Below, piece by piece: positions 2,434-9,356 of a stretch of 15,241 nt of DNA. Within the stretch, counting starts at the first letter, position 1. Each line of letters starts with the position of its first letter. The stretch is taken from NCBI GenBank assembly GCA_946545505.1, contig CAMNNN010000009.1:1-15241 (forward strand), given 5' to 3'. Both the position numbers and the translations under genes were made by a program. A model generated the notes under the pieces. It made no database searches. It saw only the letters and a list, made by a program, of their open reading frames with translations, and was not told the DNA's origin. The DNA is from an uncultured Clostridia bacterium (lineage in GTDB: Bacteria; Bacillota; Clostridia; Saccharofermentanales; Saccharofermentanaceae).

Positions 2434-3234
2434 TTACTGCACCAAAGTTGCCATAACCAAAAAGCGTCTGGTATTGTCGCCTGCGAGACATGTGGATAAG
2501 ATCAGTACTCTGTCCGTCTCAGGATCAGAGGGTGCATGGTCTTCATTTACATATGCCCCCAGTTCTCTTATACCCATTACAGAATCAAAGAATTCTGAGA
2601 AGGCATAGGAATCATGCATATCATTATAATACAAAATATGGTTTCTGTTAAATGGTATTGCAGCAAAAACTGCATATTCCTGCATTCCGGCCCTCGTATA
2701 TATCCTGATATGGACGTCCGAAGCAAGGAATTCGGGGTCTGAATAATAGTCCTGAAGGTGCCCGAACATCAGGTTTCCGGCATTCATGTGATGTCCGTAC
2801 AGAATTGTCACAGGGTCCGTAAAATCAGTTCCGTTATAGGTCGCTTCTGAGAAGATCGCGCCTCCGGCGGAGTAATTTCCGTCAGAATTGGTCCTCAGAT
2901 AGTAGCTGTCGTTGTACGGATTCTGTACTACGGGGTATGAGATATCGGTGCCCGGAATCTCAAGCCAGGCATAAATATCGGGATTTAAGGCCTGAAGCGC
3001 GTCGAAATCCACGGACAGGACCTGTTCGCCCTCTTCAGGAAGGCTGGCGGCTGCGGGGACCTGACCCGTGACGGGATTGTCGGGGTCGGCGGTCTCGAGG
3101 ACAACGGGAGCAGGGCCATACTGCTCTGTCTGTACGTTAGTCGGAGAATACAGGTCAAGGAATGCCTTAACACCGAAGAACACCGCCACTCCGAGGAGGA
3201 CGAAGCCGAGAAGCAATGTCAGTTTTCTTTTCAT
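2434..3234 (-). CDS. srtB: Class B sortase
   Basis: This is a cysteine transpeptidase that cleaves a sorting signal and joins the protein to peptidoglycan or a pilin-type acceptor at the outer membrane face. The 266-residue product has an N-terminal signal anchor (about 5-27), a Pro/Glu-rich stalk, and the sortase fold from about 80. Class B hallmarks are NPDIYAWLEIPGT (84-96), YPVVQ (100-104), YYLRTNSDG, YGHHM with catalytic His148, LMFGHLQDY (155-163), STC with Cys249, and an Arg pair at 256-257. The ATG overlaps the CpsB stop (ATGA), with AGGAGG at 3241-3246, so translation is coupled to cpsB. Its presence in a capsule-control operon is unusual. The neighbour ending in SAQTG is the obvious substrate. 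Family assignment is secure; substrate pairing is inferred from position. Confidence 0.92.
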   Translation of the reverse strand: MKRKLTLLLGFVLLGVAVFFGVKAFLDLYSPTNVQTEQYGPAPVVLETADPDNPVTGQVPAAASLPEEGEQVLSVDFDALQALNPDIYAWLEIPGTDISYPVVQNPYNDSYYLRTNSDGNYSAGGAIFSEATYNGTDFTDPVTILYGHHMNAGNLMFGHLQDYYSDPEFLASDVHIRIYTRAGMQEYAVFAAIPFNRNHILYYNDMHDSYAFSEFFDSVMGIRELGAYVNEDHAPSDPETDRVLILSTCLAGDNTRRFLVMATLVQ

Positions 3235-3965
3235 GCCGCTCCTCCTGAAAATGCTGCCGGTACAGGTTCCGTGATGAGTCTGCCGTTATGTCTGATGTGA
3301 GCAAGAGCATCATCTCCGAGCTTCCTGGTTATGGCTGCTATGGCAGGTCCCATGTTAGGTGCTCTCGTGTCGAGGTTGTGTGCGTCAGAGCCTATAAAAT
3401 CTATAGTCTTGTCAGCTATCATGCGCATGGCTTTCCTTCTTGTCCTCGGATCGAGGAAGAAGGACGCGTTGCACTGTATCATGATGCCCGTGTCGAGAAA
3501 AGCATTCATCTTCGCACGGGACTGGATCTTCATATAACGCTCGATGTGTGCTGCTACAGGGATGAGCCCGGCGGAGGAGAGTTCCGATACTTCTTTTATC
3601 ATGTAGTCGCTCCACGGGTGAAACGGCATTTCGACGAGGATGAAGCGTGTTCCCTGAAGGCAGAGCCTGCTTATATCTTCGCAGGAACTCATGCCCCTGA
3701 AGTAGTAAACTTCGGCACCAAGTGAGATGGACGGATACGAGTCCGGATCGGGAGTGCGGCTTATCTCATCGATAAGGGAAGCATAAGCTGCGTTACGCTT
3801 CTCGATGAAACGCGAGGGGTTATTCATGTCCGCGTAGAAGTGGGGCGTGGCACAGATGTGGCTGACGCCCTGTTCCTTCCACATATCGAGCATACCCATA
3901 GACATTGACAGATCCTTGCTGCCATCGTCTACTCCGGGGATAAGATGTGAATGAAAATCAAGCAA
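3231..3965 (-). CDS. cpsB: CpsB/CapC/YwqE-type PHP-family protein-tyrosine phosphatase
   Basis: This metal-dependent phosphatase removes phosphate from the tyrosine cluster of the CpsD kinase, resetting the cycle that controls polysaccharide polymerisation and export. The 244-residue length is typical. PHP metal ligands are visible: FHSH (His5, His7), GVDDGS (Asp13, Asp14), ATPH (His42), GAEV (Glu85), AHIER (His140) and GSDAH (Asp194, His196). The start is TTG at 3965. It is the only codon that gives the family's short N-terminus right before the first metal motif, and a GAAGGT ribosome site lies 7 bases upstream at 3973-3978. It begins 17 bases after cpsD and overlaps srtB by four bases. The substrate is expected to be the adjacent CpsD. 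Confidence 0.93.
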   Translation of the reverse strand: MLDFHSHLIPGVDDGSKDLSMSMGMLDMWKEQGVSHICATPHFYADMNNPSRFIEKRNAAYASLIDEISRTPDPDSYPSISLGAEVYYFRGMSSCEDISRLCLQGTRFILVEMPFHPWSDYMIKEVSELSSAGLIPVAAHIERYMKIQSRAKMNAFLDTGIMIQCNASFFLDPRTRRKAMRMIADKTIDFIGSDAHNLDTRAPNMGPAIAAITRKLGDDALAHIRHNGRLITEPVPAAFSGGAA

Positions 3966-3972
3966 TCAGCGT

Positions 3973-3978
3973 ACCTTC
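3973..3978 (-). promoter_or_regulatory. Ribosome binding site fixing the TTG start of cpsB
   Basis: GAAGGT on the minus strand lies 7 bases before TTG at 3965. No ATG or GTG at a usable place would keep the first metal-binding motif, so this site decides the non-ATG start. Confidence 0.6.
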
Positions 3979-3982
3979 GTAA

Positions 3983-4741
3983 TTATGCTTTATATTCCTT
4001 CTTGTAGTACTTACTGTAATATCTGCTGTACGACTTGCTCTTAGTAACATCCGCGTTGGTGTAGATGAAACCGATGATCTTGGCGTTTACCTGACGCAGC
4101 TGTCTCATGGTGTCGGAAAGACCGCGCTTGGAAGCGCGCTCGTTTCTTACGACTACAGCCGTACCCGAGACGTAACGGGATGCCAGAAGAGCATCGGTAA
4201 CGACGGTAACGGGAGGAAGGTCGAGCACGATAATGTCGTAGAACTCCTTCAAAGTATTGATGAGGTGTTCCATTCTGTCGGACTGCATAAGCTCGGAAGG
4301 GTTCGGAGGAATGCTTCCGCCTGTGATGACGTCAAACTTAACGGGTTCTGATGCATTAGGCACATTGAAAGCGATCCTCTGAACTGCGTCGGAGATGGAA
4401 TTAAGTCCGACGAGAAGATCGGATAAACCGGGATTCTTACGCAGATTAAGTCTGTTCGCGAAGTTAGGGATACGCATATCGCCTTCGATCAGCAATACTC
4501 TGTTCTTAGCTTCAGCGAGCGTGTATGAGAGGTTAATGGAAGTTAAGGACTTACCCTCACCCTGGAATGTCGATGTAACGCCTATAACGTGGCACTTCTC
4601 TTCGGCGGGGAAGGAGAACATGAGGTTGGTTCGAAGAAGCTTATAGGCCTCGCTCGATGCGAAGTTAAGCTGAGGTCCGATCATGGACTGCTGCTCGATC
4701 GCGAGATTGGAAGCGGCATTTCCGACTTTCTTCTTAGCCAT
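3983..4741 (-). CDS. cpsD: CpsD/CapB/YwqD-type bacterial tyrosine kinase (BY-kinase)
   Basis: This cytoplasmic autokinase works with the membrane adaptor CpsC to control capsule or exopolysaccharide length and export. The 252-residue protein shows the SEAYKLLRTNL helix (30-40), Walker A STFQGEGKS (57-65), Walker A' LLIEGDMR (83-90) and Walker B IIVLDLPP (170-177). The C-terminus has a tyrosine cluster with Tyr238, 241, 242, 245, 246 and 250, the autophosphorylation sites. I chose ATG at 4741 rather than the longer frame to 4843: the extra 34 residues overlap cpsC, look random, and GGGAGG lies 9 bases upstream at 4751-4756. The start is one base past the cpsC stop. Separate CpsC and CpsD polypeptides are the Gram-positive arrangement. 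Function is well supported; the polysaccharide is unknown. Confidence 0.95.
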   Translation of the reverse strand: MAKKKVGNAASNLAIEQQSMIGPQLNFASSEAYKLLRTNLMFSFPAEEKCHVIGVTSTFQGEGKSLTSINLSYTLAEAKNRVLLIEGDMRIPNFANRLNLRKNPGLSDLLVGLNSISDAVQRIAFNVPNASEPVKFDVITGGSIPPNPSELMQSDRMEHLINTLKEFYDIIVLDLPPVTVVTDALLASRYVSGTAVVVRNERASKRGLSDTMRQLRQVNAKIIGFIYTNADVTKSKSYSRYYSKYYKKEYKA

Positions 4742-4742
4742 A

Positions 4743-5543
4743 TTATGCACCCTCCCTTCCGTTGTGATTCGGCGCGGAAGCTGATTTAGCTGCGGTGCCG
4801 TAGTGTCCGTATCTCGAGTATCCGTAGCCGCCGGCCTTGGCATCGTTTAAGTCAGGGATAACCGCAAGCAAAGGTACGTCGGGATAGTTCTCCGTGAGGT
4901 AATCCTCACTGTGGATACTGTCGTCGAGAAGGTATCTGATGATAATGATCGCCGCTACGAGTACGAAGCCTGCAAGGCCGCCGATAGCGGTATTCTTGGT
5001 ATAGCTCGGTCCGCTCTTGGAAGAGGGGATGACCGCGTAGTCAACGATCTTAACGTCACTTCCGTTAACGATCTCCGAGATCTTATCCGGCAGAACACGT
5101 GCGATGATGTTCGCGATTCTCTCGGATTCCTGAGGTGACTCTGTAGTAACCGTAATACTGAAGACCTCGGTATTATTTACGTCAGCCGCGCTGATGCGGT
5201 CGGAAAGCTCTTTGTATGTGTAGTCGGTTCCGGATTCCTCGATAACTTCGTTAAGTACTCTTCTGGACTTCAGGATAACTACGTATGTGTTAACGAGTTT
5301 CTGTGCAGCGGAGAGATCCGCGCTCGAGATTGAAAGCGCTGCGCTTCCCACCGAGATGTTGGAGTTGTTTACATAAAGGAGCGTGCTAGCCGTGTACTCG
5401 GGCTTTACGAAAGCAAAGGTGTAGCCTAAGGCCATACCGCCAGTGATAACGGTCACGAGGAACAAAAGCCAGAACTTGCTCAGGAGCACCTGGGCAAGTT
5501 CGAGCAGATCTATTTCGAATTCTTCAGATTTCTTCTCTCTCAT
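4743..5543 (-). CDS. cpsC: CpsC/CapA/YwqC-type chain-length regulator and tyrosine-kinase adaptor (Wzz family)
   Basis: This polysaccharide co-polymerase sets chain length and activates CpsD through its cytoplasmic tail. The 266-residue product has an N-terminal IDLLELAQVLLSKFW amphipathic start, membrane segment 1 (about 24-46), an extracytoplasmic domain, and membrane segment 2 (about 185-204) preceded by a Pro/Ser/Gly stretch (173-180). The cytoplasmic tail contains PLLAVIPDL (224-232), as in Wzz/CpsC proteins that contact the kinase. The last 30 residues form a Gly/Tyr-rich tail with Tyr at 240, 242, 245 and 248, not a standard part of the family as I know it. The start lies 31 bases after the TPP enzyme's stop and has no good ribosome site at normal distance. 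Translation may depend on ribosomes arriving from upstream, or the leader may be atypical. Confidence 0.93.
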   Translation of the reverse strand: MREKKSEEFEIDLLELAQVLLSKFWLLFLVTVITGGMALGYTFAFVKPEYTASTLLYVNNSNISVGSAALSISSADLSAAQKLVNTYVVILKSRRVLNEVIEESGTDYTYKELSDRISAADVNNTEVFSITVTTESPQESERIANIIARVLPDKISEIVNGSDVKIVDYAVIPSSKSGPSYTKNTAIGGLAGFVLVAAIIIIRYLLDDSIHSEDYLTENYPDVPLLAVIPDLNDAKAGGYGYSRYGHYGTAAKSASAPNHNGREGA

Positions 5544-5574
5544 TGTTCTAGTTTACAATAAACGGCCTTTCTAA

Positions 5575-7281
5575 TCAGCTTTGTAATGTTTCTTTTATAT
5601 TACCTTCGTCGAGTGTCATTATAAAATCGTATTCTTCTCTGTCAAGCAACGGCTCCTGATCCTGGTTGGGCTTGCCGAACTCGAGCTTCGGGAAAACGTA
5701 CGTGGGCTCTGTGATCTTCACCTCGATAAACTGAGGTCCGGGCACATCGAAAAGCCCGTCGTCAATATCTTCGGGAGAAGTCACGCACTTGTACGGGATC
5801 TTGTAGGCGCCGGCAACAGCTTCGAAGTCGGGCACCGTATAACCTCCCTCGGGTACTGTCTGAACATAGTTGTTATCGAAATACATCTCCTGGAAATGGC
5901 GGATCATGCCGAGGGCAGAGTTATTAAACAGGATTATCTTGACGGGGATATTCTCTCGCGCGACAGTCTGAAGCTCCTGAATATTCATCTGGATTCCGCC
6001 GTCTCCCTGGAAGGAATAAACTTCCTTGCCCGAAGCGAGCGCACATCCGATGGCTGCGGGGAGGGAATAACCCATCGCGCCGTGTCCGCCGGAGAAGAAG
6101 ATACGCTGATCCTTCTTAACGCCGAATGATTGTGCGACCCATATCTGGTTCTGTCCTACATCGGTAGTGATGACAGAGCCTTCGGGAATAACCTTGCTGA
6201 TATTATGAACGAACCTGTTAGGAAGTCTGTCGTCGATAAATGCGAGCTCGTCGCGTATCTTGCCGCAGATCATATTCCACAGTTCAAGATCCTTAGTCTT
6301 CGCATCGAGCATGGCATCGAGCACATCCTTAACGTCCGCATTAACCTGGATCTCATCGTCGTGAGCCTTAAGGCTTAACTCATCCTTATCTATCTCTACT
6401 CTTACGATTCTCGCACCGGGGGCGAACTGCTCTCTTCTGGCTCCGATCTGACGGACGTCGAGACGTGCGCCGAGGGAGATTACCAGGTCGCTTTTCGCCG
6501 CGATGAAATTCGCTGTCCTCGAGCCGTAAGCTCCGATGAATCCGTAGGAATTCCTGACCGTATCTATCGCGAGCATCGTGGTGATGACGGGGATATTAAG
6601 CTTGGATGCGACTTTGTTAAGAAGCTCCACCGCGCCTGCCGACTTGATGCCCGAACCTGCGAGCAGGACGGGACGGGAAGAGGCGGCGAGTGCTGCCTTA
6701 AGTTCGTCGAATGAAGTGCCGGAGCGGTCTTCAGAAGGAACGAATCCTTCAAGAGCATCGGGGTCGACCTCAGCCCTGAAGATGTTCATGGGAATGTCGA
6801 GGAGGACAGGTCCCTTACGGCCTTCCGAAGCGATGTGGAAAGCTTCGTCCAGGTGGTAGCGGAGCTTGTCCGCGTCAGTGATCCTGACTGCATATTTCGT
6901 AACGGGCTTAACGATGGAAACGATGTCTGTCTCCTGGAAGCCGCGCTGTCTTACGCCGAGATCTCCCTTGGACTCGAATGTGTTGACCTGCCCTGTTATG
7001 AACAGCGTAGGGATGGAGTCGAAGTAAGCGTTGCAGATACCCGTGATGAGGTTTGTCGCGCCGGGACCGGAGGTCGCATATGCTACGCCAACCTTGCCGG
7101 TCTCCTGGGCATACCCGCATGCAGCGAAGGCTGCGCCCTGCTCATGATATGTCACGTGGGCTCTGATCGGAGACTTGCTGAACGAGTCCATAAGATGAGT
7201 AACCATGCCTCCGGGGTAACCGAAGACATCGGTGATGTTCTTCTTGAGAAGATACTCAACTATGTAGTCAGAAGCTTTCAT
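5575..7281 (-). CDS. Acetolactate-synthase-like thiamine-pyrophosphate enzyme
   Basis: The 568-residue product carries the three domains of the acetolactate synthase (IlvB) family. The PYR domain has GYPGG (21-25) and the catalytic Glu47 of YHEQGAAFA. The central domain carries the SLGARLDVR motif (269-277). The PP domain has GGHGAMGYSLPAA (398-410) and the TPP/Mg motif GDGG...NN (426-429, 453-454). The family condenses or decarboxylates 2-oxo acids. No IlvN-type small subunit is adjacent, and the gene sits directly upstream of cpsC in a polysaccharide-control run. It may therefore make a sugar-modification precursor rather than branched-chain amino acids; that is inference. ATG at 7281 is preferred over an in-frame TTG two codons earlier. 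Neither has a convincing ribosome site. Ordinary IlvB acetolactate synthase remains possible. Confidence 0.85.
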   Translation of the reverse strand: MKASDYIVEYLLKKNITDVFGYPGGMVTHLMDSFSKSPIRAHVTYHEQGAAFAACGYAQETGKVGVAYATSGPGATNLITGICNAYFDSIPTLFITGQVNTFESKGDLGVRQRGFQETDIVSIVKPVTKYAVRITDADKLRYHLDEAFHIASEGRKGPVLLDIPMNIFRAEVDPDALEGFVPSEDRSGTSFDELKAALAASSRPVLLAGSGIKSAGAVELLNKVASKLNIPVITTMLAIDTVRNSYGFIGAYGSRTANFIAAKSDLVISLGARLDVRQIGARREQFAPGARIVRVEIDKDELSLKAHDDEIQVNADVKDVLDAMLDAKTKDLELWNMICGKIRDELAFIDDRLPNRFVHNISKVIPEGSVITTDVGQNQIWVAQSFGVKKDQRIFFSGGHGAMGYSLPAAIGCALASGKEVYSFQGDGGIQMNIQELQTVARENIPVKIILFNNSALGMIRHFQEMYFDNNYVQTVPEGGYTVPDFEAVAGAYKIPYKCVTSPEDIDDGLFDVPGPQFIEVKITEPTYVFPKLEFGKPNQDQEPLLDREEYDFIMTLDEGNIKETLQS

Positions 7282-7304
7282 TATCAATTATTCTAACACA
7301 ACGG

Positions 7305-8387
7305 TCAGATGCCGAAGAGCTCCTTTACTGCGTCCTTCTTGACCTCGGAACCGATAACGCACAGCTTGCCCGTTACGTCTGCGGGACCGGTTCTGACGGA
7401 AGTCTCGCCGGGAACATAATCGAAATGAATCCAGTTGCCGTCTTCACCTGCTACGATACCCTTGGCACGGAGGATCATACCGTAAGAGGATGTCTCGTCG
7501 AGCTCCTTGAGAGCTGTCTCGATGCCGTCCTTAGTGAACTTCTTGGATGTCTCGAATCCGATGGAATCGAAGACTTCATCTGCATGATGGTGATGATGAT
7601 CTTCACCGCAGTGACATACGCCGTGCTCATGATCGCAGTGGCTGTGATCCTCGTGGTCATGGTCATGCTCATCATGGTCGTGGTCGTGGTGATGCTCGTG
7701 CTCATGGTCATGATCGTCGTGGTCGTGATCGTGATGATGGTGGTGATGCTCGTGCTCTTCAGCCTCAGCGAGAGCCGCAGCCATATCGGCAGCTGTGAGA
7801 GGATTCTCTATAGCACTCAGGATCTGAGCTCCCGTGAGCTGCTCCCAGGGTGTTGTGATTACCTGTGAATGATCGTTAATTGCCTTGATGAGCTCGACAG
7901 CCTTATCGAGCTTCTCCTGCTTGATGTCGGATGTACGTGAAAGGATGATCGTGCCTGCGTACTTGATCTGATTCTCGTAGAACTCGGAGAAGTTCTTCAG
8001 GTAAACCTTACACTTGCTCGCGTCGATAACGGTTACCGTTCCGCAAATTTCCGTGTCTTCGACTTTCTTAATAGCCGCCACGACATCGGAAAGCTTGCCT
8101 ACGCCTGAAGGCTCGATAACGATTCTGTCGGGATGGAATCTGTCGATTACATCCTTCAATGCCGTGCCGAAGTCGCCTACAAGCGAGCAGCAGATACATC
8201 CGGAATTCATCTCTGTAATCTCGATGCCTGATTCTTTAAGGAAGCCTCCGTCGATACCGATCTGACCGAACTCGTTCTCAATCAATACGATCTTCTGCTT
8301 GTCATATCCGTCGGAGATGAGCTTCTTGATAAGTGTTGTTTTTCCTGCTCCGAGGAATCCTGAGAAAACGTCTACCTTTGTTGCCAT
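7305..8387 (-). CDS. COG0523 (G3E/CobW family) metal-chaperone GTPase with long His/Asp-rich tract
   Basis: COG0523 proteins use GTP hydrolysis to deliver metals, notably zinc, cobalt or nickel, to client proteins. The 360-residue product has Walker A GFLGAGKTT (10-18), the family's metal-binding SGCICC with Cys64, Cys66 and Cys67, IEPSG (91-95), VIDASK (120-125), and a CobW C-terminal domain from about 271. Residues 212-269 are almost entirely His, Asp and Glu, with Cys at 251, 258 and 260, a likely metal-storage or sensing segment. The usual NKxD guanine-specificity motif is replaced by SRTSD (150-154), which may alter nucleotide choice. The start has AGAAGG upstream. It lies 21 bases after another COG0523-like gene and 23 bases before the TPP enzyme. 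The metal cannot be read from sequence; zinc is a reasonable guess. Confidence 0.92.
   Translation of the reverse strand: MATKVDVFSGFLGAGKTTLIKKLISDGYDKQKIVLIENEFGQIGIDGGFLKESGIEITEMNSGCICCSLVGDFGTALKDVIDRFHPDRIVIEPSGVGKLSDVVAAIKKVEDTEICGTVTVIDASKCKVYLKNFSEFYENQIKYAGTIILSRTSDIKQEKLDKAVELIKAINDHSQVITTPWEQLTGAQILSAIENPLTAADMAAALAEAEEHEHHHHHHDHDHDDHDHEHEHHHDHDHDEHDHDHEDHSHCDHEHGVCHCGEDHHHHHADEVFDSIGFETSKKFTKDGIETALKELDETSSYGMILRAKGIVAGEDGNWIHFDYVPGETSVRTGPADVTGKLCVIGSEVKKDAVKELFGI
7581..7754 (-). repeat. Low-complexity His/Asp/Glu codon tract inside the COG0523 gene
   Basis: This stretch encodes residues 212-269 of the metal GTPase and is built from repeated CAT/CAC, GAC/GAT and GAG codons. The plus strand therefore looks like a degenerate TGATGG/TCATGG repeat. 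It also creates long spurious open frames on the plus strand. Such tracts tend to vary in length between strains. Confidence 0.85.
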
Positions 8388-8408
8388 ATGAATACCTTCT
8401 TTCTATTG

Positions 8409-9356
8409 TTAGCTGAAATAGATTATCTCCGTCTCGGGCTTGCTTGTGATCGCATAGTCCGTGACCTCGAGACAGGGAACCTGGATCTTCTGACCATTCT
8501 GGTTATCTTCGAAGAATCTTACCGTTCCGGTTACCTTGAGCCACTGTCCTACGGGGAAGCCCGGCTTAATGTCGTAGAAGCACAACAGATGGATCTGTCC
8601 GATATCGGCAGAACAGCATGTATATGCCTGCCTCTGAAGTGCGAAGGCCTTGCCCTTGAATTCGCGGAAAGTGACCGCCTGTCCTGTAAGCTTAACCTTC
8701 TTACCGTTGTATCTGGGTGCGTTGTCGAGCGCATCTGTCCAGAAAAGACCGAAGTCGTCAGGGGAGATCTCGCATACATCCTGTGACAGGTCGTAAGGCA
8801 GGAAGTCTCCGATATCGAGGAGCTTGCCGTCCGTGCTCAAGAACTGCAGATTAACTCCGGGATTAACGGACTTAACCGAGCCTCGAAGCTTAGGGATATT
8901 GTTTACTTCGGGATCAACGCGGTTGAAGATCGCCGTGTCGCAGTAGCGGTAATAGTCCGCGAAGAATGTCTGCATATTCTTGTAGTACTCGCTGTAAGTT
9001 GTCGCGTCGATGACAACAACGGCAGCCGCGAGAGCCCATCTCTCGGGCACATCCACCTCATCAAAAAACTTACCGGGGGAGACGGAACCGTTCCACTCAA
9101 TGAAGATGACATCGGGCTTGTGCTCGGCTTCGATCCTGAACATCAGGTCGCGGTTGATCTCTGTTGTCTCCTTCTCGATGATGACAGGCATGCCGTCAGG
9201 GAACTCGAGATCGTCGTACTCGACATCTCCGTCCTCTGTGGCGATAATTACGATCTTTCTTCCTCTGAAAGCTTCATTAGAAGCCCACTCGCCTATGACG
9301 GTGGTCTTGCCGCTGTCGAGGAATCCGGTGAAAAAGTAAACAAGACAATCTTCCAT
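8409..9356 (-). CDS. COG0523-like GTPase domain fused to DUF1980/TIGR03943-type C-terminal domain
   Basis: The 315-residue product begins like a COG0523 protein: FTGFLDSGKTT with Walker A at 11-19, a Walker B-like DVIFIEWNG (82-90), VVVIDATT (113-120) and NRVD (145-148) in the guanine-specificity position. The CxCC metal motif is absent; the equivalent region (about 60-68) has no cysteine. From about 205 the sequence changes to a pattern I recognise from the DUF1980/TIGR03943 (YcgQ) family: YNGKKVKLTG (216-225), QRQAYTCCSAD (241-251), and GQWLKVTGTV (270-279). That family usually partners a YcgR-type permease and is often found near COG0523 genes. No permease is in this window. The start has GGAG 8 bases upstream. 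It is the first gene of the minus-strand run. The fusion reading comes from motif recall, not a database search. Confidence 0.8.
   Translation of the reverse strand: MEDCLVYFFTGFLDSGKTTVIGEWASNEAFRGRKIVIIATEDGDVEYDDLEFPDGMPVIIEKETTEINRDLMFRIEAEHKPDVIFIEWNGSVSPGKFFDEVDVPERWALAAAVVVIDATTYSEYYKNMQTFFADYYRYCDTAIFNRVDPEVNNIPKLRGSVKSVNPGVNLQFLSTDGKLLDIGDFLPYDLSQDVCEISPDDFGLFWTDALDNAPRYNGKKVKLTGQAVTFREFKGKAFALQRQAYTCCSADIGQIHLLCFYDIKPGFPVGQWLKVTGTVRFFEDNQNGQKIQVPCLEVTDYAITSKPETEIIYFS

Follow-up and report, generated by a model that had tools for sequence, protein, structure and literature searches.

This report concerns a gene on the minus strand of a 15,241-nucleotide stretch of DNA from an uncultured Clostridia bacterium of the gut (contig CAMNNN010000009.1, assembly GCA_946545505.1), the whole of which is called the window below. 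The gene, at 8409..9356, encodes a fusion protein in which a G3E GTPase without the CxCC metal motif is joined to a DUF1980_C domain, and it is followed by the gene for a second G3E GTPase, the partner, in which the motif is present. We judge the chances to be about even that the fusion is half of a permease-free, cytoplasmic two-protein G3E GTPase unit, most likely handling zinc. The genes and motifs on which the argument turns are these:

8409..9356, minus strand: fusion gene, CxCC-less G3E GTPase plus DUF1980_C (315 amino acids; from Pfam, TIGR03943, homologs and a structure model)
8856..9341, minus strand: cobW/G3E GTPase domain (PF02492), fusion residues 6-167
9303..9326, minus strand: Walker A motif GFLDSGKT of the fusion, residues 11-18 (position 4 acidic; Gly in the partner)
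9087..9101, minus strand: G3 motif IEWNG of the fusion, residues 86-90 (IEPSG in the partner)
8913..8924, minus strand: G4 guanine motif NRVD of the fusion, residues 145-148
8418..8786, minus strand: DUF1980_C domain, OB-like fold, fusion residues 191-313 (PF21537 and a model of the domain alone)
8604..8621, minus strand: TCCSAD motif of the fusion, residues 246-251 (Cys247, Cys248 and Asp251 invariant in the alignments)
8388..8408, minus strand: intergenic gap from fusion to partner, 21 nt, consistent with one transcript
7305..8387, minus strand: partner G3E GTPase with CxCC, His-rich linker and CobW_C (360 amino acids; Pfam)
8187..8198, minus strand: CICC metal motif of the partner, residues 64-67
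7575..7760, minus strand: His/Asp/Glu-rich linker of the partner, residues 210-271 (30 His, 24 Asp/Glu)

The fusion and its distribution

A first-pass annotation, made by a model from the sequence alone, had proposed that the gene joins a COG0523-like GTPase to a DUF1980/YcgQ-type domain, and Pfam places both domains above their cut-offs: PF02492 (cobW) matched residues 6-167 (E 2.3e-13, 50.6 bits, cut-off 20.7) and PF21537 (DUF1980_C) matched residues 191-313 (E 1.6e-14, 54.2 bits, cut-off 25.9). The annotation had named two outcomes that would speak against this assignment, the lack of a DUF1980 match and a match to CobW_C (PF07683) in its place; neither occurred in the Pfam search, where CobW_C was absent from the fusion's matches up to E 10. 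Its expectation of a TIGR03943 match was borne out in part: the model matched residues 196-309 (E 7.8e-15), although at 54.9 bits, under the 88.8-bit cut-off, and the match spans positions 110-219 of the model's 221, leaving its N-terminal membrane part uncovered. The CxCC motif, which the annotation had described as lost, is indeed absent from the 315-residue sequence. No hydrophobic membrane segment was found in the fusion either (top 19-residue hydropathy, 1.06), and on the plus strand across 8409..9356 a stop interrupts the reading frame. Measured against COG0523, the fusion has the GTPase domain and lacks CxCC and CobW_C, the latter being common but not universal in that family. An AlphaFold2 model of the fusion, with a mean predicted local distance difference test (pLDDT) score of 89.3 and a predicted template modelling (pTM) score of 0.66, has a HypB/UreG-like (SIMIBI/G3E) fold and counts HypB/UreG and SRP-FtsY among its best structural matches.

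At E ≤ 0.001 the protein search yielded 209 homologs. The 120 that were listed fall into two similarity classes, one at about 57-86% identity and the other at about 30-36%. Most of the listed homologs carry cobW and DUF1980_C together, in keeping with the architecture first proposed, and the six nearest, 82-86% identical across the full length, have an identical two-domain make-up. Full-length fusions were found in 45 of 246 sampled genomes of the class (Clostridia) and in 34 of 35 genomes of the genus; in the phylum sample, only the window's own genome matched at E ≤ 1e-30 (1/119). We conclude that the GTPase-DUF1980_C fusion is genuine, an origin by chance or artefact being ruled out by the 209 homologs, the 80 loci described below and the 34 of 35 genus genomes, and that it is an old family in Clostridia.

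Pairing with a CxCC G3E GTPase

The partner, a gene that the first-pass annotation had not connected with the fusion, matches PF02492 (E 1.4e-37) and PF07683 (E 1.7e-06) and so has the GTPase domain, CxCC and CobW_C of a COG0523 protein; its Glu37 lies within an IENEFG stretch upstream of CICC. Among 80 named loci, the best of 571 candidate loci and including those of Coprococcus catus and Frisingicoccus caecimuris, a G3E gene adjoins the fusion in 78 (same strand, within 600 bases), and the two loci without one (L051 and L064) have only 48 and 59 bases to the contig end. The partner lies downstream of the fusion in 36 of the 38 loci of subfamily A (L042-L079; median gap, 23 bases) and upstream in all 42 loci of subfamily B (L080-L121; median gap, 25 bases). 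It is also adjacent in all 34 fusion-bearing genomes among the 35 searched in the genus, a set that overlaps partly with the named loci. The pairing of fusion and partner is thus well supported, and its retention through a change in gene order, the usual sign of joint function, suggests that the two proteins act together. Distances in the fusion and partner trees correlate with an r of 0.86 (75 of the 80 pairs), a value that lacks species control, since a mirror-tree comparison with a dus-like neighbour had only three usable loci. Three partners (L087, L112 and L120) lie at a contig start and show no CxCC, and in the L080 partner the motif stands further in.

The L080 partner (L080:4453-5967) is itself unusual, a protein of 504 amino acids that is extended at the N-terminus and whose linker contains seven His/Cys-rich repeats, nearly identical to one another. 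In some members of the genus (G001, G015, G017, G023 and G025, giving loci L037-L041) the fusion occurs in two copies, the second of them divergent; in L037-L040 a different CxCC G3E gene lies upstream of that copy, with a strong CobW_C match in L037, where this was tested.

Permease-linked relatives and zinc genes

In other Clostridia, the CxCC-less GTPase type occurs free-standing or fused to an ArsP_1 (YcgR-type) permease. Three single-chain examples with cobW and ArsP_1 matched PF03773 at E 5.4e-39, 1e-55 and 7.8e-59, and a search with one such GTPase-permease gave at least 120 relatives, 113 of the 120 listed showing both Pfam domains. Their genes lie near a CxCC G3E gene and usually beside ycgQ, and in some cases ZnuA and Fur genes are there too; L162 and L163 encode the four parts in separate, unfused genes. 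Five FUR-like, two ZnuA-like and one ZnuB-like neighbours of these operons (from L165, L166, L169, L170 and L171) were checked against Pfam, and all matched FUR, ZnuA or ABC-3; other ABC-like neighbours were judged by eye. According to PMC6336718, the Zur protein of Bacillus anthracis binds upstream of yciC (BAS1633) and of an operon with an ArsP_1 permease (BAS1632); this is the only experimental tie between such a permease and zinc that turned up.

Loss of the CxCC loop across a clade

An alignment of 98 GTPase domains contained 56 without CxCC (28 fusions, 25 GTPase-permeases and three free-standing relatives), and in all 56 the CxCC columns form a shared gap; the remaining 42 domains had been selected for having CxCC. 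The P-loop lysine and the Walker B glutamate are kept in 56 of 56. At the position of Glu37, which we take from the title of structure 4ixn to be a ligand residue in YjiA, 30 of 34 partners have Glu. The residues printed for that column (the top five per group) are Ala, Val, Leu, Asn and Met in the fusions and mostly Gln in the GTPase-permeases, with no Glu among those printed for CxCC-less domains. More widely, CxCC was absent from all 107 listed fusion homologs with a P-loop pattern (the 13 of 120 without the pattern being excluded) and from the first 130 residues of the 120 listed GTPase-permease homologs, two of which have no P-loop pattern. Partners in the trees had been selected by the CxCC pattern, and four other G3Es without an exact CxCC (L152, L156, L160 and L161) were at first outside the trees; when added later, they fell across the branch from the 56-domain group (support, 99). 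The fusion thus lacks CxCC because the entire clade lacks that switch-I loop, which, on the alignment and trees, was probably lost in a common ancestor with nucleotide binding retained.

The DUF1980_C domain and its cysteine pair

DUF1980_C was modelled separately because the VIA and Foldseek match lists for the fusion were dominated by its GTPase half; alone, the domain had a pLDDT of 92.4 and gave matches to OB domains. Two alignments of the fusion were made, one of the window protein with 21 homologs (A1) and one of the window protein with 71 homologs and 19 locus-derived fusions (A2). Cys-Cys-x-x-Asp is invariant across 91 aligned fusion proteins. In an alignment of 27 DUF1980_C domains, of which separate YcgQ proteins contributed 14, the same Cys, Cys and Asp recur without exception (27 of 27). 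The motif therefore arrived with the domain. This contradicts the first-pass suggestion that Cys247-Cys248 replaced the lost CxCC, and a role as a substitute metal site is ruled out by the invariance of the pair in separate YcgQ domains.

In eight of ten YcgQ proteins, a simple window placed three hydrophobic segments ahead of DUF1980_C (four in L163, one in L171), and in most the charges around these segments favour an outside location of the domain. A Staphylococcus aureus DUF1980 protein appears among lipoproteins in PMC5020093. If DUF1980_C is outside in YcgQ, it would have changed membrane side on entering the fusion.

A separate group of proteins (L185-L188) bears DUF1980_C on one membrane span, with the Cys-Cys pair changed to Ser-Ser, and no permease or G3E gene was found in the 4.5-5 kb fetched around them.

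Ancestry of the two halves

The GTPase tree unites the 28 fusions in a single group, with a Shimodaira-Hasegawa-like approximate likelihood ratio test (SH-aLRT) value of 94 (91 with four added rows), and they group with the GTPase-permeases of L165, L168, L178 and L179 (SH-aLRT 99, and still 99 with the four G3Es added). The DUF1980_C tree gives a matching picture: 25 fusion domains form one clade (98/94), which groups with YcgQ of L165, L168, L178, L179, L190, L191 and L032 (98/99), and placement with the permease-only YcgQ proteins (L182-L184) was rejected (approximately unbiased [AU] test, p 0.022). The partners of the fusions nest with the partners of L165 and L168 (81), in a comparison that left L178 and L179 outside. 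For the first tree the bootstrap had not converged, and PERMF_L032 and PARTP_L032 were dropped from the second for their long branches. Descent of the fusion GTPase from a duplicate of the partner is disfavoured, not strongly (AU p 0.036).

The trees support a single origin of the fusion and its descent from an operon type with a CxCC-GTPase, a GTPase-permease and YcgQ, and we regard this ancestry overall as fairly supported. As the trees of both halves point to one operon type, one deletion could have made the fusion; we infer both the deletion and the direction of transfer.

A rare permease

The first-pass annotation had noted that the permease partner is missing here, and we found no PF03773 match in the genome, whose assembly is 69.86% complete. 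ArsP_1 permeases above the cut-off occur in only 3 of 59 genus genomes. Across the class, an ArsP_1 match is lacking in 33 of the 45 genomes with the fusion, versus 91 of 201 fusion-free genomes (Fisher p 0.0008 with genomes treated as independent and no phylogenetic correction). The other 12 fusion-bearing genomes have some match; 11 of these could be located, and none is near the fusion, the nearest being about 55 kb away (in G232). A custom model built from six sequences, one a 123-amino-acid piece, detected no permease in the flanks fetched for the 80 fusion loci, 43 of which had about 6 kb on both sides. ZnuA is present in 53 of 58 genus genomes; as the genus keeps ZnuA while the permease is rare, zinc import there can run without YcgR. 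The proposal that GTPase and permease-subunit functions are directly coupled fits other Clostridia, where this GTPase type is fused to the ArsP_1 permease, and is unlikely for the organism of the window, given the scarcity of the permease in the genus (3/59) and the failure to see it beside the fusion in the loci (0/80).

Proposed function and alternatives

The arrangement that we favour, the permease-free two-protein unit, could work as follows. The partner would hold the metal at a switch-I site (Glu37 and C64-x-C66-C67), backed by a His-rich, probably metal-buffering linker. The fusion GTPase, its own metal site lost, would probably pair with the partner as a GTP-dependent heterodimer, and the OB-like DUF1980_C, with its Cys-Cys...Asp, may take or present the metal or select the client. 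The ancestor would have been an operon of a CxCC-GTPase, a CxCC-less GTPase-permease and a membrane anchor-DUF1980_C protein, with the GTPase pair presumably working with the YcgR-YcgQ permease. A single deletion of the permease, its stop codon and the membrane part of YcgQ would join the GTPase to DUF1980_C; from the order CxCC-GTPase, GTPase-permease, YcgQ, it would yield the gene order of subfamily B, and it would move DUF1980_C into the cytoplasm if YcgQ holds the domain outside. Both the heterodimer, proposed by analogy with the dimers formed by HypB and SRP-FtsY, and zinc as the metal are inferred. A bolder version, which we think less likely than not, is that the ancestral operon is an undescribed GTPase-driven zinc permease (an asymmetric G3E pair, ArsP_1 and an external OB subunit) that gut Clostridia converted for soluble metal transfer. 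One deletion would have dropped the permease and drawn the OB domain into the cytoplasm, where the domain would now work with a metal-less GTPase and its CxCC partner.

Several observations weigh against parts of this account. Neither ZnuA nor ZnuB was found near the fusion in any of the 80 loci, and a FUR gene was found in one (queries: two ZnuA, two ZnuB and four FUR sequences), which speaks against a fixed zinc neighbourhood; a suspected znuABC upstream in L116 was not borne out by this search. Nor was a clear Fur/Zur box found upstream of the fusion when three patterns were counted in 38 subfamily A, 38 subfamily B and 12 permease-operon upstream regions against 565 controls of higher G+C content; Fur-like cores were somewhat commoner in subfamily A and are not counted as evidence. 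The zinc role is thus one carried over from the relatives. The heterodimer is argued from gene pairing and tree distances, the correlation of those distances is just 0.33 inside subfamily A, and the guanine specificity of the partner is uncertain because its G4 motif reads SRTSD. The single-span relatives L185-L188, outside the 27-domain alignment, have lost the Cys-Cys pair. On the GTPase half, the single origin of the fusion has SH-aLRT values of 91-94, below the starred level, and on the DUF1980_C half neither L162/L163 (AU p 0.21) nor L185-L188 (0.17) is rejected as sister. Finally, the YcgQ homolog ScfB is predicted with two membrane spans, not three, in PMC5584981; two spans would put DUF1980_C on the N-terminal side, which weakens the switch of membrane side.

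The pair might instead serve another metal or cofactor (cobalt, nickel, iron or a corrinoid), as G3E proteins serve nickel (HypB, UreG) and cobalt (CobW), with the fusion acting as an insertase for one enzyme. The lack of a tie between the fusion loci themselves and zinc genes would fit this, as would the small CxCC G3Es beside corrinoid methyltransferase-like genes in some genomes of the class (L172-L177). Those of L172-L176 are, however, a separate group in the tree (SH-aLRT 91), relatives of the pair sit with ZnuA, ABC-3 and FUR genes, and the two subfamilies share no client enzyme gene that is regularly found next to the pair, so that we consider another metal unlikely. We see a still smaller chance that the fusion, in line with the coupling idea of the first-pass annotation, continues to serve a YcgR-type permease whose gene lies elsewhere in the genome, regulating or energising it as a soluble protein. 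The covalent joining of the same GTPase type to a permease in other Clostridia and the 12 fusion-bearing genomes with some ArsP_1 match speak for it; the excess of ArsP_1-free genomes among fusion bearers, the 3 of 59 genus genomes, the empty flanks and the lack of a hydrophobic membrane segment in the fusion speak against it.

The remaining alternatives concern DUF1980_C. Its vicinal cysteines could sense thiol/redox state or oxidative stress and switch the GTPase accordingly, in which case the fusion would transfer no metal, and the invariance of Cys-Cys-x-x-Asp in 91 fusions and 27 domains would suit a sensor too. We nevertheless find this improbable, as the aligned architectures retain the motif next to G3E metal GTPases and it is lost in the single-span group L185-L188, which has no G3E neighbours. 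A role of the OB-like domain in binding nucleic acid or a protein client, making the fusion a targeting adaptor and not a metal protein, seems highly improbable: OB folds are common to unrelated functions, and the same domain occurs on membrane-anchored YcgQ, perhaps extracellularly, where nucleic acid binding is implausible.

COG0523 GTPases are leading candidates for intracellular zinc delivery, a role that raises the question of how metal reaches them. One GTPase class that is joined in nature to each YcgR-YcgQ (ScfAB) subunit in turn links this question with that of the permease's substrate, and a gene pair with and without a metal site permits a direct test of GTP-dependent zinc passage to or from an OB domain.

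Other genes in the window and in related loci

Apart from the partner, the neighbours of the fusion vary. In subfamily A they are lineage-specific, with a dus-like gene (judged by eye) in 26 of 38 loci; in subfamily B no other neighbour family exceeds 9 of 42 loci, and the commonest such family in both, which is transporter-like, occurs in five A and four B loci. In the window, the partner gene is followed, after 17 nt, by a gene for a thiamine pyrophosphate (TPP) enzyme resembling acetolactate synthase (5575-7287, minus strand). The nearest relatives L042, L044 and L045 likewise have a close homolog after the partner; none turned up in the remaining 77 named loci, within the flank length and open reading frame filter used. 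Further along the minus strand (2434-5543) lie, by eye, a sortase-like gene and capsule-type chain-length, kinase and phosphatase genes.

The small CxCC G3Es of L172-L177 (at about 4300-6100 in each locus) are 198-209 amino acids long and stand beside a short protein of 139-155 amino acids, whose start is His-rich in four of six; corrinoid methyltransferase-like genes lie alongside. In the tree, the window's partner falls outside the group formed by the small G3Es of L172-L176.

Comparison with known systems

In the literature searched by domain and family names, with supplements and most subscription papers outside its scope, we found no published description of a GTPase-DUF1980_C or GTPase-permease fusion. 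The closest described GTPases are the COG0523 G3E proteins (YjiA, ZagA/YciC and CobW), from which the fusion differs in lacking CxCC, the Glu37 equivalent and CobW_C and in reading IEWNG for IEPSG; the CxCC motif is present in all COG0523 members according to Haas et al. (PMC2770081).

With YcgQ/TIGR03943/ScfB the fusion shares the C-terminal DUF1980_C and its Cys-Cys-Asp motif, but those proteins have membrane helices where the fusion carries a GTPase, and the fusion scores under the TIGR03943 cut-off. We know of no substrate for YcgR-YcgQ (ScfAB), which occurs in several Gram-positive bacteria, and the function of ScfAB is stated as unknown in PMC5584981. The GTPase-ArsP_1 fusions (annotated "permease", YraQ/UPF0718) have the same CxCC-less GTPase, a CxCC partner and DUF1980_C in the neighbourhood; they differ in that the permease carries the GTPase, with DUF1980_C on a membrane protein of its own.

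The fold of the fusion is common to the SIMIBI GTPases HypB/UreG and SRP-FtsY. SRP-FtsY forms dimers and UreG dimerises, and the pair predicted here would differ from these systems in an asymmetric arrangement of the metal site, only one of the two protomers binding metal. PMC9164220 shows HypB as a dimer. FeoB, the GTPase-coupled permease for ferrous iron, has a G domain of another GTPase class, and it has a permease where the fusion in the window has none. It offers an analogy only: like the relatives of the fusion, it couples a nucleotide-hydrolysing domain to a permease for metal (PMC9164220).
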